This document shows, piece by piece, positions 26,382 to 55,560 of a stretch of 64,000 nucleotides of DNA. Location: assembly GCF_029626025.1 (NCBI RefSeq), contig NZ_JARUBF010000001.1:1488001-1552000 (forward strand), in the 5' to 3' direction. Under the pieces are notes generated by a model. That model saw only the letters and a list, made by a program, of their open reading frames with translations, did not search any database and was not told where the DNA came from. Source of the DNA: Solwaraspora sp. WMMD406 (GTDB taxonomy: Bacteria; Actinomycetota; Actinomycetes; Mycobacteriales; Micromonosporaceae). The number at the start of each line of letters is the position of its first letter. Positions within the stretch are counted from its first letter, which is position 1. The translations under genes were made by a program, and so were the position numbers.

Positions 26382-26462
26382 GCCCGGGTGGTGGAACGGC
26401 AGACACGGCTGCCTTAAAAGCGGCTGCCGAGAGGCGTGCGGGTTCGATTCCCGCCCCGGGCA
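26382..26462 (+). tRNA. tRNA-Leu (anticodon TAA)
   Basis: A complete cloverleaf: acceptor GCCCGGG (26382-26388) pairs with CCCGGGC (26455-26461), discriminator A26462. The anticodon stem GCTGC/GCGGC encloses loop CTTAAAA with anticodon TAA at 26415-26417. A long variable arm (class II, as for Leu) and GGTTCGATTCC in the T arm are present. The terminal CCA is not encoded; the next bases are CCG. It decodes UUA, a very rare codon in high-GC actinomycetes and one used in development genes in Streptomyces (bldA tRNA); the same role here is inference. Confidence 0.95.
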
Positions 26463-26559
26463 CCGAGCGGCTCCACGGCTGTACTCGGTAACCTCGATGA
26501 CACCGTCTACCCTTGAGGTCACACTCATCGTGTGACAACCCCCTGAGGGAGGCTGGACA

Positions 26560-30629: not shown

Positions 30630-32006
30630 GTGCGTTACCACGACAACGTCGTCGAACTCATCGGCAACACCCCGCTGGTACGGCTGCGTAACGTCACCGC
30701 CGGGATCTCCGCGACGGTGCTCGCCAAGGTCGAGTACTTCAACCCGGGCGGTTCGGTCAAGGACCGGATCGCGCTGCGGATGGTCGAGGCGGCCGAGAAG
30801 GCCGGGCTGCTCAAGCCGGGCGGCACGATCGTCGAGCCCACCAGCGGCAACACCGGGATCGGCTTGGCGCTGGTCGCTCAGCTCAAGGGCTATTCGTGTG
30901 TCTTCGTCTGCCCAGACAAGGTCAGCGAGGACAAGCAGAACGTGTTGCGCGCGTACGGTGCCCGGGTGGTGGTCTGTCCGACGGCGGTCGCTCCGGAGGA
31001 TCCCCGGTCGTACTACCAGGTGTCCGACCGGCTGGCCGCGGAAATCCCCGGCGCGTGGAAGCCGGACCAGTACGCCAACCCGGCGAACACGCAGTCGCAC
31101 TACGAGGACACCGGACCGGAGCTGTGGGAGCAGACCGCAGGCCGGATCACGCACTTCGTGGCCGGGGTCGGGACCGGCGGCACGGTCTCCGGGATCGGCC
31201 GTTACCTCAAGGAGGTCTCCGCCGGAGCGGTCCGGGTGATCGGCGCCGATCCGGAGGGTTCGGTCTATTCCGGCGGCTCGGGCCGGCCGTACCTGGTGGA
31301 GGGAGTGGGAGAGGATTTCTGGCCGGCGAACTACGACCGGTCCATCTGCGACGAGATCGTCGAGGTGTCCGATCAGGAGTCGTTCGCGTTGACCCGCCGG
31401 CTGGCCCGCGAGGAGGGTCTGCTGGTCGGTGGTTCCTGCGGGATGGCGGCCGCGGCGGCGTTGCGGGTCGCCCGTCAGGCGGGCCCGGACGACGTCGTGG
31501 TGGTGCTGCTGCCGGATGGTGGACGCGGCTACCTGTCCAAGATATTCAACGACGAGTGGATGGCGCGGTACGGGTTCCTGGAGTCCGAGGGGGCGGAACC
31601 GACGGTCGCCGATGTCCTCGCCGCCAAGCCGGGCGGGCTGCCGGAGATGGTGCACGTCCACCCGACCGAGACGGTCCGGGACGCGATCGACTACATGCGC
31701 GAGTACGGGATCTCGCAATTGCCGGTGCTCAAGGCGGAACCACCGGTGGTGACCGGTGAGGTAGCCGGATCGATCGCCGAGCGGGATCTGTTGGACGCGT
31801 TGTTCAGCGGCAAGGCGCAGCTGTACGACACGATCGAGCGGCACATGGGAGAGCCGTTGCCGGTGGTCGGCGGCGGCCAACCGGTCCGCGACGCGGTGGC
31901 GCTGCTGGCGCATTCGGACGCCGCCCTGGTCCTGGTGGACGGGAAGCCGCGCGGCGTGCTCACGCGTCAGGACCTGCTTGCGCATCTTGGGAACGCTTCC
32001 GGCTAA
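30630..32006 (+). CDS. cbs: Cystathionine beta-synthase
   Basis: Condenses serine and homocysteine to cystathionine with pyridoxal phosphate, the first step of transsulfuration to cysteine. The 458-residue protein has the fold II lysine at Lys44 (GGSVKDR), the substrate loop EPTSGNTGIGLA, the phosphate loop GVGTGGTVSG, and LPDGGRGYLSKIFNDEW. Two CBS domains at the C-terminus (about 335-455) resemble the regulatory domains that bind S-adenosylmethionine in other Cbs enzymes. GTG start with GAAGGG 11 nt upstream. Position and order relative to metB, greA and mca match M. tuberculosis Rv1077-Rv1082. Confidence 0.95.
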   Translation: MRYHDNVVELIGNTPLVRLRNVTAGISATVLAKVEYFNPGGSVKDRIALRMVEAAEKAGLLKPGGTIVEPTSGNTGIGLALVAQLKGYSCVFVCPDKVSEDKQNVLRAYGARVVVCPTAVAPEDPRSYYQVSDRLAAEIPGAWKPDQYANPANTQSHYEDTGPELWEQTAGRITHFVAGVGTGGTVSGIGRYLKEVSAGAVRVIGADPEGSVYSGGSGRPYLVEGVGEDFWPANYDRSICDEIVEVSDQESFALTRRLAREEGLLVGGSCGMAAAAALRVARQAGPDDVVVVLLPDGGRGYLSKIFNDEWMARYGFLESEGAEPTVADVLAAKPGGLPEMVHVHPTETVRDAIDYMREYGISQLPVLKAEPPVVTGEVAGSIAERDLLDALFSGKAQLYDTIERHMGEPLPVVGGGQPVRDAVALLAHSDAALVLVDGKPRGVLTRQDLLAHLGNASG

Positions 32007-32312: not shown

Positions 32313-32825
32313 TCAGCGCAGCTGACGGCGGTAACGTAGCTGCTCGGTGGCGGCCGGGCCGATCCAGCTTTCCCGCCGGGGCCCGTCCGGGGACCAGCCG
32401 TCGCGTTCGTAGAAGCGTCGGGCCTGGGTGTTCGCGGTCAGCACCCAGAGCACCGCGTGGTCGTGGCCTTGGTCGCGCAGCGCCGTGCGGGCGTGGTGGA
32501 TCAGCAGCCGACCGATGCCGGTGCGCAGACGCGCCGGATCGACGTGGATCGCGTACAGTTCGCCGAGGTGTGGGTCGCCGTCCTCGTGCGGACCCAGGTA
32601 GCTGAAGCCGACGAGGTGTCCGTCGTGTTCGGCGACGGTGAGCAGGTGGGTGTGCCGTTCGTAGGTCCACCGTTCGACCCACCATCCGGCGGTCGACTCG
32701 GCCGAGACAGCGGTGAGGGCCTCGTCGGAGACGATCCCCCGGTAGGCGTCGCGGCGGGACCGGTGGTGCAGGTAGCCGACCGGAATGACGTCGTCGAGAT
32801 GGGCCGGGCGTAAGGTGACGGGCAC
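32313..32825 (-). CDS. GNAT family acetyltransferase
   Basis: A 170-residue GNAT enzyme. The acetyl-CoA site is ELYAIHVDPARLRTGIGRLLIHHA (R-x-x-G-x-G/A phosphate loop), followed by AVLWVLTANTQARRFYERDGWSPDG, where the RFYERDGW block is typical of RimI-like and small-molecule acetyltransferases. The substrate cannot be inferred. The start is a GTG at 32825 with no clear ribosome site, so it may be translated from a leaderless or structured mRNA. Upstream on the same strand lies a hairpin and a mini-ORF leader (32896-33082), which may control it. Confidence 0.85.
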   Translation of the reverse strand: MPVTLRPAHLDDVIPVGYLHHRSRRDAYRGIVSDEALTAVSAESTAGWWVERWTYERHTHLLTVAEHDGHLVGFSYLGPHEDGDPHLGELYAIHVDPARLRTGIGRLLIHHARTALRDQGHDHAVLWVLTANTQARRFYERDGWSPDGPRRESWIGPAATEQLRYRRQLR

Positions 32826-32895
32826 TCGGCGAGCCTAAGGGCGTACGTACCGGTCGGTGGGGCGACCCCGGTTGATGGCCAGCCCGTTGATGGGG

Positions 32896-33082
32896 CGACC
32901 CCCGGGGTTCCGCGTGTGCGGACCGGCTGGACTGGACCGGCATCCCCGGGGGTCGGGTGGCTGTCGTGGTTTCGCCGCACCGCTGCCACACGGTCTCGAC
33001 GAACGGAGCTGTCAAGGACAGCGGCTAGCGGGCAGCCACCTCACGAGTCCTATGGCTATACAAAGCTGGACCACCTCCTTTC
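32896..33082 (-). promoter_or_regulatory. Putative leader: extended Shine-Dalgarno, mini-ORF and attenuator-like hairpin
   Basis: On the minus strand, GAAAGGAGGTGGTCCAGC (33082-33065) is complementary over 18 nt to the conserved 3' end of 16S rRNA (one G-U pair). Ten nt after GGAGG a TTG could start a 12-codon ORF, (M)YSHRTREVAAR, with TAG at 33027-33025; an overlapping frame ends VRWLPASRCP at 33012. A CTGTC-loop-GACAG stem follows at once. Further down, a perfect 12-bp stem CGACCCCCGGGG / CCCCGGGGGTCG (32896-32907, 32944-32955) precedes the acetyltransferase GTG by about 70 bp. The arrangement looks like translational attenuation; this is inference. Confidence 0.5.
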
Positions 33083-33551
33083 CCGTGTACGGCCACGCTA
33101 GCGCCGTCGGGCTCCGACCGGCAACGGTTTTTGTCCTCGTGCTGTGGCGGGACGGCGCGCCGACCCTCGCCGGCCGCTTCGCCCGATGTCCGTAACTAAT
33201 TGTAATGACTCGCTTACTTAAAGTGCTGAGCCTGGGGTGCAATTTATGTACGTCTTTGCCTGAGTCGGCTGTACGCCCCGTTGATATGGGTTGTCGAGAT
33301 CCAGGGTCCCTGGCTACTTGTCCGGCCTGTCCCTCATCTGCCATCGTCATTGCCGTGCGGTGTCCGAGGTTGGCGGTTGTCGATGCCTCGAAGGGCCGCG
33401 AGGTCGGCGGGTCGTTACGCCGAGCCGGTGGAGGTCGTTCAACGCGTCCGCGCCGCCCCCGCAGCCCTGACTAATAGCTTCCGGCGCGTGGATCGTCGCA
33501 CGAAAGCGACCAAGGGTTTTCAACGAGTATTCAATAGAGGTAGGCGGACAG
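33083..33551. other. Non-coding gap before the XRE regulator gene
   Basis: No gene is supported here. The stretch 33186-33255 is much richer in A and T than its surroundings and includes TACAAT and TTGCAC boxes on the minus strand, a plausible promoter for the leader at 32896-33082. On the plus strand it may hold the promoter of the XRE regulator gene that starts at 33552. Confidence 0.5.
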
Positions 33552-55407: not shown

Positions 55408-55560
55408 TCAGTGTGCTCTAGTGAGCACATGGTTGGTAGTCCCGCCTTGCGGTGGGACGGTCCCGGTCTGAGCGGCGGGTGCCGTGCCGGGTTCACGCTT
55501 CTCGGCCACCTGCCCGCGTACGCGGGTCTTCTGGTCGGCTCCACGTGCTGCCACCGGGCC
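55408..55560 (-). ncRNA. Probable omega (guide) RNA region at the tnpB 3' end
   Basis: In IS605 and IS607 elements the TnpB guide RNA is made from the tnpB 3' end and the right end of the element. Here this part holds stems GTCCCGCC-TTGC-GGTGGGAC (55439-55458) and TGTGCTC-TAGT-GAGCACA (55412-55429). Location follows from family knowledge; boundaries are a guess. Confidence 0.4.

Follow-up and report, generated by a model that had tools for sequence, protein, structure and literature searches.

The Ms_IGR-5 locus

The stretch of DNA analysed here (the window) comprises 64,000 nucleotides from Solwaraspora sp. WMMD406. On its minus strand, ahead of a gene for a GNAT acetyltransferase, lies a region which a first-pass annotation had interpreted as a putative ribosome-mediated attenuator of that gene. 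The region gives a full-length match to the Rfam family RF02471 (Ms_IGR-5; model positions 1-184, 102.7 bits versus a gathering score of 45, E 5.5e-22) and is a member of this family. Rfam classifies it as an sRNA gene, and the present analysis adds the mini-ORF, the complement to the 16S rRNA tail, the helices P1 and P2 and the proposed pseudoknot. The features are the following, in the direction of transcription:

33119..33124, minus strand: -35 element TTGCCG (comparison of conserved -35/-10 elements)
33095..33100, minus strand: -10 element TAGCGT (conserved box)
32890..33088, minus strand: RNA, Rfam RF02471 Ms_IGR-5 (Rfam profile match and alignment)
33084..33087, minus strand: helix P1, 5' strand CACG (covariation)
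33068..33082, minus strand: 15-nt core of the 16S-tail complement, GAAAGGAGGTGGTCC (16S pairing; the 18-mer described earlier extends to 33065)
33025..33063, minus strand: mini-ORF of 12 codons with TTG start and TAG stop, literal translation LYSHRTREVAAR, with Met as first residue if initiated (position; conserved start, frame and stop)
33047..33050, minus strand: GGAC, 5' strand of the proposed pseudoknot (covariation with the P4 loop)
33042..33045, minus strand: helix P1, 3' strand CGTG, in ORF codons 7-8 (covariation)
33037..33042, minus strand: second SD-like motif GAGGTG, 6 nt ahead of the last sense codon (seen directly; conserved, though the finder required GAGGT)
33033..33040, minus strand: helix P2, 5' strand GGTGGCTG, in ORF codons 8-11 (covariation)
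32956..32963, minus strand: helix P2, 3' strand CAGCCACC, just before the terminator (covariation)
32944..32955, minus strand: terminator-like stem, left arm CGACCCCCGGGG (read from the sequence)
32923..32940, minus strand: hairpin P4 atop the terminator stem, whose loop holds GTCC (32932..32929), the 3' strand of the pseudoknot (covariation)
32896..32907, minus strand: terminator-like stem, right arm CCCCGGGGGTCG, with no U-tract after the stem in the window (read from the sequence)
32832..32837, minus strand: -10-like TAGGCT of the GNAT gene's own putative leaderless promoter, outside the RNA (comparison of loci)
32313..32825, minus strand: GNAT acetyltransferase gene (domain match, PF00583, E 8.9e-17), a neighbour and not a likely target

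Distribution of the family

The genome of WMMD406 contains a single RF02471 match, at the window locus. At E <= 0.001 the family model matched 33 of 41 relatives (32 above the cut-off), 131 of 197 genomes of the class (130 above the cut-off) and 57 of 296 genomes of the phylum (26 above the cut-off). A further model, R1, which was built from alignment A1 with P1, an inner stem and a local hairpin and whose E-values are rough, found matches in 138 of 396 phylum genomes; the two phylum samples are overlapping and non-identical. None of 14 control genomes gave an RF02471 match. Ms_IGR-5 is not universal, since many genomes remained without a match, e.g. five of family f22 in the R1 search of 396 genomes, though the filters applied were strict. 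The phage records searched gave no match, and among the plasmid records a single one, of 2.66 Mb and from Nocardia farcinica, contained a partial match (34% of the query length). The locus is a separate small RNA, common among actinobacteria, with a mini-ORF of its own and an exceptionally long complement to the 16S rRNA tail.

Two MAGs, labelled Deltaproteobacteria (L211) and Acidobacteriota (L237), carry the SD core and a family-like GAGGTG block; these are either mis-binned actinobacterial contigs or cases of spread outside the phylum. One genome of the class sample, and only this one, has two RF02471 matches (G404, with L079/L094 and L093); with a stated contamination of 5%, the assembly may be mixed.

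Homologues of the RNA have appeared in several studies. Significant ribosomal reads on Ms_IGR-5 homologues in M. abscessus and M. smegmatis are reported in a section of PMC4974804, which also states that classical non-coding RNAs can be protected in RNPs, another way in which such reads can come about. Passages of PMC8079986 (S. lividans SLIV_16488, RNA-seq validation yes) and PMC8780764 treat the RNA as an sRNA, the latter as a transcription unit of its own: the 139 sRNA transcription units of S. avermitilis include two with an Rfam match, and this RNA is one of the two. In M. smegmatis, ncMSMEG15794c overlaps IGR-5 according to a passage of PMC10454040. No mini-ORF, 16S pairing or pseudoknot was found for Ms_IGR-5 in the literature passages covered, a scope to which the original IGR-5 paper does not belong.

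Promoter and neighbouring genes

Of 193 loci, 154 have a TANNNT box starting 21-26 nt before GGAGG, compared with a mean of 10.5 after shuffling, and 100 of the 193 combine this -10 with a TTG -35 at a spacing of 16-18 nt (shuffled mean 0.66). The promoter in the window reads TTGCCG-18-TAGCGT, and from its position (33124..33119 / 33100..33095) transcription is expected to start near 33090-33088, that is at or just before P1. The comparison of loci indicates that the RNA is its own transcription unit with a conserved promoter. This conserved promoter is distinct from the AT-rich patch at 33186-33255, which the first-pass annotation had called promoter-like. The patch lies upstream of the RNA, and six loci placed side by side share no sequence there by eye.

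The acetyltransferase gene has no ribosome site, as had been noticed before. Because the -10-like TAGGCT stands only 6 nt before its GTG (32825, minus strand), the gene looks leaderless, which would account for the missing site. A TANNNT box 6-7 nt before the GNAT start was found in 15 of 17 distinct loci, the window included (it is missing in L007 and in L015, of which L246 is a duplicate in sequence); L270, a weaker GNAT match, was left out of this comparison. The start of the GNAT orthologue follows the SD by 211-212 nt in six congeners (L003-L005, L008, L010, L012), by 306 nt in L007 and by 1148-1220 nt in nine other distinct loci. The downstream genes, a list of which had been proposed as a check, did not reveal a conserved regulated gene: in the 36 loci with called neighbours the first downstream ORF has the orientation of the RNA at 17 and the reverse orientation at 19, and no downstream family occurs more than twice on either strand. 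These neighbours were called by a rough GC3 heuristic in 36 of 41 loci, the remaining five having no element by the first finder.

Complement to the 16S rRNA tail

All 18 positions of the 18-mer GAAAGGAGGTGGTCCAGC (33082..33065, minus strand), which is present in a single copy in the window, pair with GGCTGGATCACCTCCTTTCT, one of them as G.U. GGCTGGATCACCTCCTTTCT is the 16S rRNA 3' end of WMMD406 itself and occurs once in its genome; the 18-nt complementarity claimed in the first-pass annotation is therefore confirmed. The 15-nt core GRRRGGAGGTGRTYC has two matches in 7.16 Mb, i.e. this locus and the antisense strand of the 16S 3' end, and the reversed pattern, taken as control, also gave two. 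In WMMD406 the core is the only complement to the 16S tail of such length outside the 16S gene itself.

The first-pass annotation had named a lack of conservation of the 18-mer and the mini-ORF in relatives as evidence that would speak against it. The element is conserved, the ORF for instance being present in all loci counted (299 of 299, see below). The 15-nt core and the ORF are kept, whereas the last three letters of the 18-mer are not conserved, so that the conserved core comprises 15 nt. The few changes within it mostly preserve the pairing with the 16S rRNA, with A or G opposite U and C or T opposite G, as seen in the columns of 260 elements, a set which is partly pattern-selected.

The mini-ORF

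The 12-codon ORF starting with TTG is indeed present in the window (33063..33025, minus strand) as TTG TAT AGC CAT AGG ACT CGT GAG GTG GCT GCC CGC TAG. All 299 loci (267 distinct ORF sequences) contain an ORF of 10-17 codons whose end falls at an equivalent point of the structure, a count in which eight start codons were allowed, which eases a full score; ATG, GTG or TTG alone account for 267 of the 299. In detail, the start codons are TTG in 151 loci, ATG in 84, GTG in 32, CTG in 20, ATC in 6, ATT in 4 and ACG in 2, and the stop codons are TAG in 254, TGA in 28 and TAA in 17. Starts such as TTG, CTG, ATC and ATT are probably unusually weak for actinobacterial genes. The start mostly lies 10-12 nt after GGAGG, and the stop follows the first base of GAGGTG by 15 nt in 284 loci, by 14 nt in 14 and by 18 nt in one.

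Among 260 distinct elements (including the spurious L232), an ATG, GTG or TTG 8-14 nt past GGAGG occurs 228 times in the ORF frame and 20 and 10 times in the other frames, and premature stops number 2 in the ORF frame versus 242 and 165 in the others. All 40 deep loci found with R1 contain the ORF, 37 of them with ATG, GTG or TTG, a result which is not wholly independent since R1 rewards letters at start and stop. The GTG that opens the alternative frame VRWLPASRCP, which had also been pointed out earlier, is present in 190 of 259 elements.

The peptide, in contrast, varies, with 255 distinct peptides among the 267 distinct ORF sequences. Fourteen loci (L174, L177, L344-L354, L357) read the GAGGTG block one base off (..GGA GGT..). 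In spite of this change of frame, their start still follows the SD and their stop holds its position in the structure, so that conservation does not concern the C-terminal half of the peptide. Changes in codons 8-12 track helix P2. Codon 3, however, encodes Ser in 90 of 173 distinct 12-codon ORFs (50 AGY, 40 TCN) versus 40.9 expected from independent columns, and Asp in 26 versus 9.3 expected, both with kinship ignored. The Ser excess by way of both codon types hints that the peptide or its tRNA matters. In nearly all loci GAGGTG stands 5-6 nt ahead of the last sense codon.

Covariation and folding

Covariation was counted in 162 sequences aligned without structure, with 500 shuffles and slid versions of each helix as controls; the helices were chosen on the same alignment as they were counted on, and kinship was ignored. 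The alignment of leaders for covariation, which had been suggested in the first-pass annotation, supports P1 and P2. P1 is paired in 97.3% of the cells and has 160 double-change cells, compared with 34.8 in shuffles and with no more than 58% and 39 in slid versions, and P2, which is the top pair in a scan of all column pairs, is paired in 90.6% with 147 double-change cells (35.1 in shuffles; slid versions at most 62% and 49). Hairpin P4 is paired in 84.1% with 68 double-change cells versus 18.9 in shuffles, slid versions reaching up to 44.

The proposed pseudoknot between the ORF and the hairpin inside the terminator is supported less strongly than P1 and P2. GGAC/GTCC is paired in 89.3% with 17 double-change cells versus 3.6, and none of 500 shuffles was as high by either measure; slid versions are not far behind, with 13 double changes (55% paired) and 16 (31%). 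The aligned letters differ from GGAC in 47 of the 162 sequences; in 11 of these GGACC is displaced by a single column. Several others have corresponding changes in the P4 loop, namely GTGACC with GGTCAC (L337-L342, L369), TGTGACG with CGTCACA (L335), CGCGACC with GGTCGCG (L336) and GGATGA with TCATCC (L125); the match is absent in other lineages of the alignment, mainly the frame-shifted ones.

The 12-bp G+C stem reported earlier was found at 32955..32944 / 32907..32896 (minus strand). Among 153 loci of relatives, 142 have a strongest stem of at least 8 bp within 230 nt after the stop, a count with no shuffled sequences for comparison. The minimum-energy fold of the window RNA (-96.4 kcal/mol, z -3.3) counts against the reading favoured below: it contains neither P1 nor P2 and pairs part of the SD with the 3' strand of P2. 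Forcing P1 and P2 gives -94.1 kcal/mol, a cost of 2.3 kcal/mol with the pseudoknot not counted, and both folds retain the terminator-like stem. Such near-equal predicted alternatives are compatible with a switch without being proof of one.

Four other helices were considered and dropped or not relied on. Stem 1 of the Rfam consensus has 91.4% of its cells paired and no double changes in 120 sequences, a score equal to that of shuffles; this bears on the Rfam drawing and not on membership, which is based on score. Pairing of GGUCC in the SD with GGAC as an inner stem reaches 92.9% (120 sequences) or 89.2% (162 sequences) without covariation, the shuffled mean being 89.0% with 115 of 500 shuffles as high, and GGAC covaries with the P4 loop instead; we read the constancy of GGUCC as due to 16S pairing. 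P2 was preferred to a local hairpin GGCU/AGCC around the stop, which has 74.1% of its cells paired. In P3, CGCUAG would pair with a strand farther downstream (81.0% of cells, with 55 double changes versus 14.9 and slid versions up to 37), but this helix is poorly aligned. We propose a revised family structure in which P1, P2 and the pseudoknot replace Rfam stem 1.

Possible function

The earlier interpretation stands insofar as the 16S complement, the mini-ORF and the hairpins form one conserved unit, which should engage ribosomes; its second part, control of the acetyltransferase, is not supported. What emerges from the comparison of sequences is a unit with its own promoter, a conserved ORF, a 16S complement, P1 and P2, and unlinked neighbours. 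We consider it rather probable that this is a stand-alone RNA which captures ribosomes and whose fold is opened by translating the mini-ORF. The separately transcribed RNA of about 195 nt would then be a structured sRNA and a minimal mRNA at the same time. Its 5' loop would present the 15-nt complement to the free 3' tail of the 16S rRNA and capture a 30S subunit, which would initiate the ORF of 10-17 codons, often at a weak start (TTG, CTG, ATC, ATT); initiation is presumably slow because of the weak starts and the long spacing. Since ORF codons form strands of P1, the proposed pseudoknot and P2, a translating ribosome would have to open the fold by stripping one strand from each, whereas a ribosome that does not advance would leave it closed. 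GAGGTG is spaced like an SD relative to a ribosome whose A site holds the stop codon, and the motif may re-pair with the anti-SD and hold the terminating ribosome. RNA pairing dictates most C-terminal positions of the peptide, suggesting that ribosome engagement, and not the peptide, is probably what is selected. The output may be trans-acting or ribosome-buffering; buffering is the boldest reading, a translation-gated trans-acting sRNA the more conventional one.

Attenuation, in which translation of the mini-ORF would decide between termination and read-through into GNAT, appears highly improbable. In the window and in six congeners GNAT is indeed preceded by the ORF, the stems and a terminator-like hairpin, in this order, and the terminator-like stem in the window lacks a U-tract; the downstream gene, however, varies or is convergent, GNAT lies 1.15-1.22 kb away in nine other distinct loci and has its own -10 box in 15 of 17, and the pseudoknot, if real, forms only once the terminator hairpin is made. 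Control of GNAT by a leader peptide was rejected on synteny and on the leaderless box, and no link of the RNA to antibiotic induction was found in this sequence-based analysis. That an SD-like run, a short open frame and a G+C stem came together by chance can be practically dismissed: DNA of this kind is indeed rich in purine runs and G+C stems, and the terminator stems lack a shuffled control, but the Rfam E-value, the frequency of matches in the class (RF02471) and the phylum (R1) and the covariation argue against it, and conservation excludes it.

The mini-peptide might itself be the functional product of a dual-function sRNA, the strong SD simply providing high output. Conservation of the ORF at every locus and the excess of Ser (by AGY and TCN) and Asp at codon 3 would fit; the near absence of repeated peptides, the 14 loci which shift frame over the best-conserved block and the codon 8-12 changes that follow P2 do not, and we regard this reading as quite doubtful. 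An ordinary trans-acting sRNA that pairs with target mRNAs, its mini-ORF only shielding or exposing the RNA, e.g. from RNases, is conceivable though unlikely. It would agree with a stand-alone unit ending in a terminator-like stem, with the two near-repeats GAGGTGG and the CACC strand, which could pair alternatively, and with the SD pairing in the minimum-energy fold, but target pairing leaves the 15-nt 16S complement unexplained.

Several known systems resemble Ms_IGR-5 in part. In leader-peptide attenuators (trp/his type, antibiotic-responsive) an SD is followed by a short ORF whose translation competes with RNA helices. Such competition, as proposed here, and a terminator-like hairpin downstream are shared features; Ms_IGR-5, in contrast, has no conserved downstream gene, is its own transcription unit and, except for the mild Ser excess, shows no run of a single codon. 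SgrS and RNAIII are dual-function sRNAs which likewise combine a stable structured RNA with a small ORF, but the peptide of Ms_IGR-5 is poorly conserved, its frame varies among lineages and its SD covers the 16S tail. tmRNA is a pseudoknotted, structured RNA with a mini-ORF, as is proposed here, the pseudoknot included, for Ms_IGR-5. 6S RNA acts as a decoy and lets go of its enzyme when it serves as template for a short product; the partner here would be the ribosome and not RNA polymerase, and decoy action is an analogy.

Following this analogy, a '6S RNA for ribosomes' would mimic an mRNA start by its 15-nt 16S pairing, weak start and long spacing and so park 30S subunits, which would be released only by translating an otherwise unimportant mini-ORF. 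With plentiful initiation factors, GTP and charged tRNAs, P1, the pseudoknot and P2 would unfold and the ribosome would be freed. This is a speculative idea to which we assign little likelihood; if true, actinobacteria would have an RNA that senses or buffers their translation capacity. This family, catalogued simply as an sRNA, appears to be a ribosome-engaging mini-mRNA that is widespread in Actinomycetota, a phylum to which many antibiotic producers belong. Should translation of the mini-ORF gate the fold, the RNA would offer a compact natural system in which to test how ribosome availability is read by an RNA.

Sequence samples

At least 120 loci were obtained with a pattern fixing GGAGGTGGTCC, GGAC and GAGGTGRC. 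The finder required GGAGGTG and GAGGT, so that the constancy of these letters is partly imposed, while start, stop and frame were not imposed. Alignment A1 contains 120 elements. The non-redundant set numbered 140 (from 154), of which 20 were removed manually to keep the list short; L011 is among the 20 because the first finder had placed its SD 4 nt off. The 299 loci consist of the 260-element set and the 40 deep loci minus L232, which matched the pattern by chance and is included in the 260-element counts only. L170 and L178 were missed by the finder and stand outside both counts; both carry the ORF by eye.

Other features of the window

A match to Rfam RF03015 (Transposase-2 RNA, 68.8 bits) lies at 55501..55435 on the minus strand. 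ARAGORN found a tRNA-Leu (anticodon taa, 26382-26464, plus strand) and no tmRNA in the window. Convergent to the RNA region, a PALP/CBS-domain protein which we take to be cystathionine beta-synthase-like is encoded at 30630-32006 on the plus strand, and some relatives have a neighbour cluster, presumably SerC-like, 2-5 kb from the RNA. Together with the Ser excess at codon 3, these neighbours provide a lead, and only a lead, to a link with serine.
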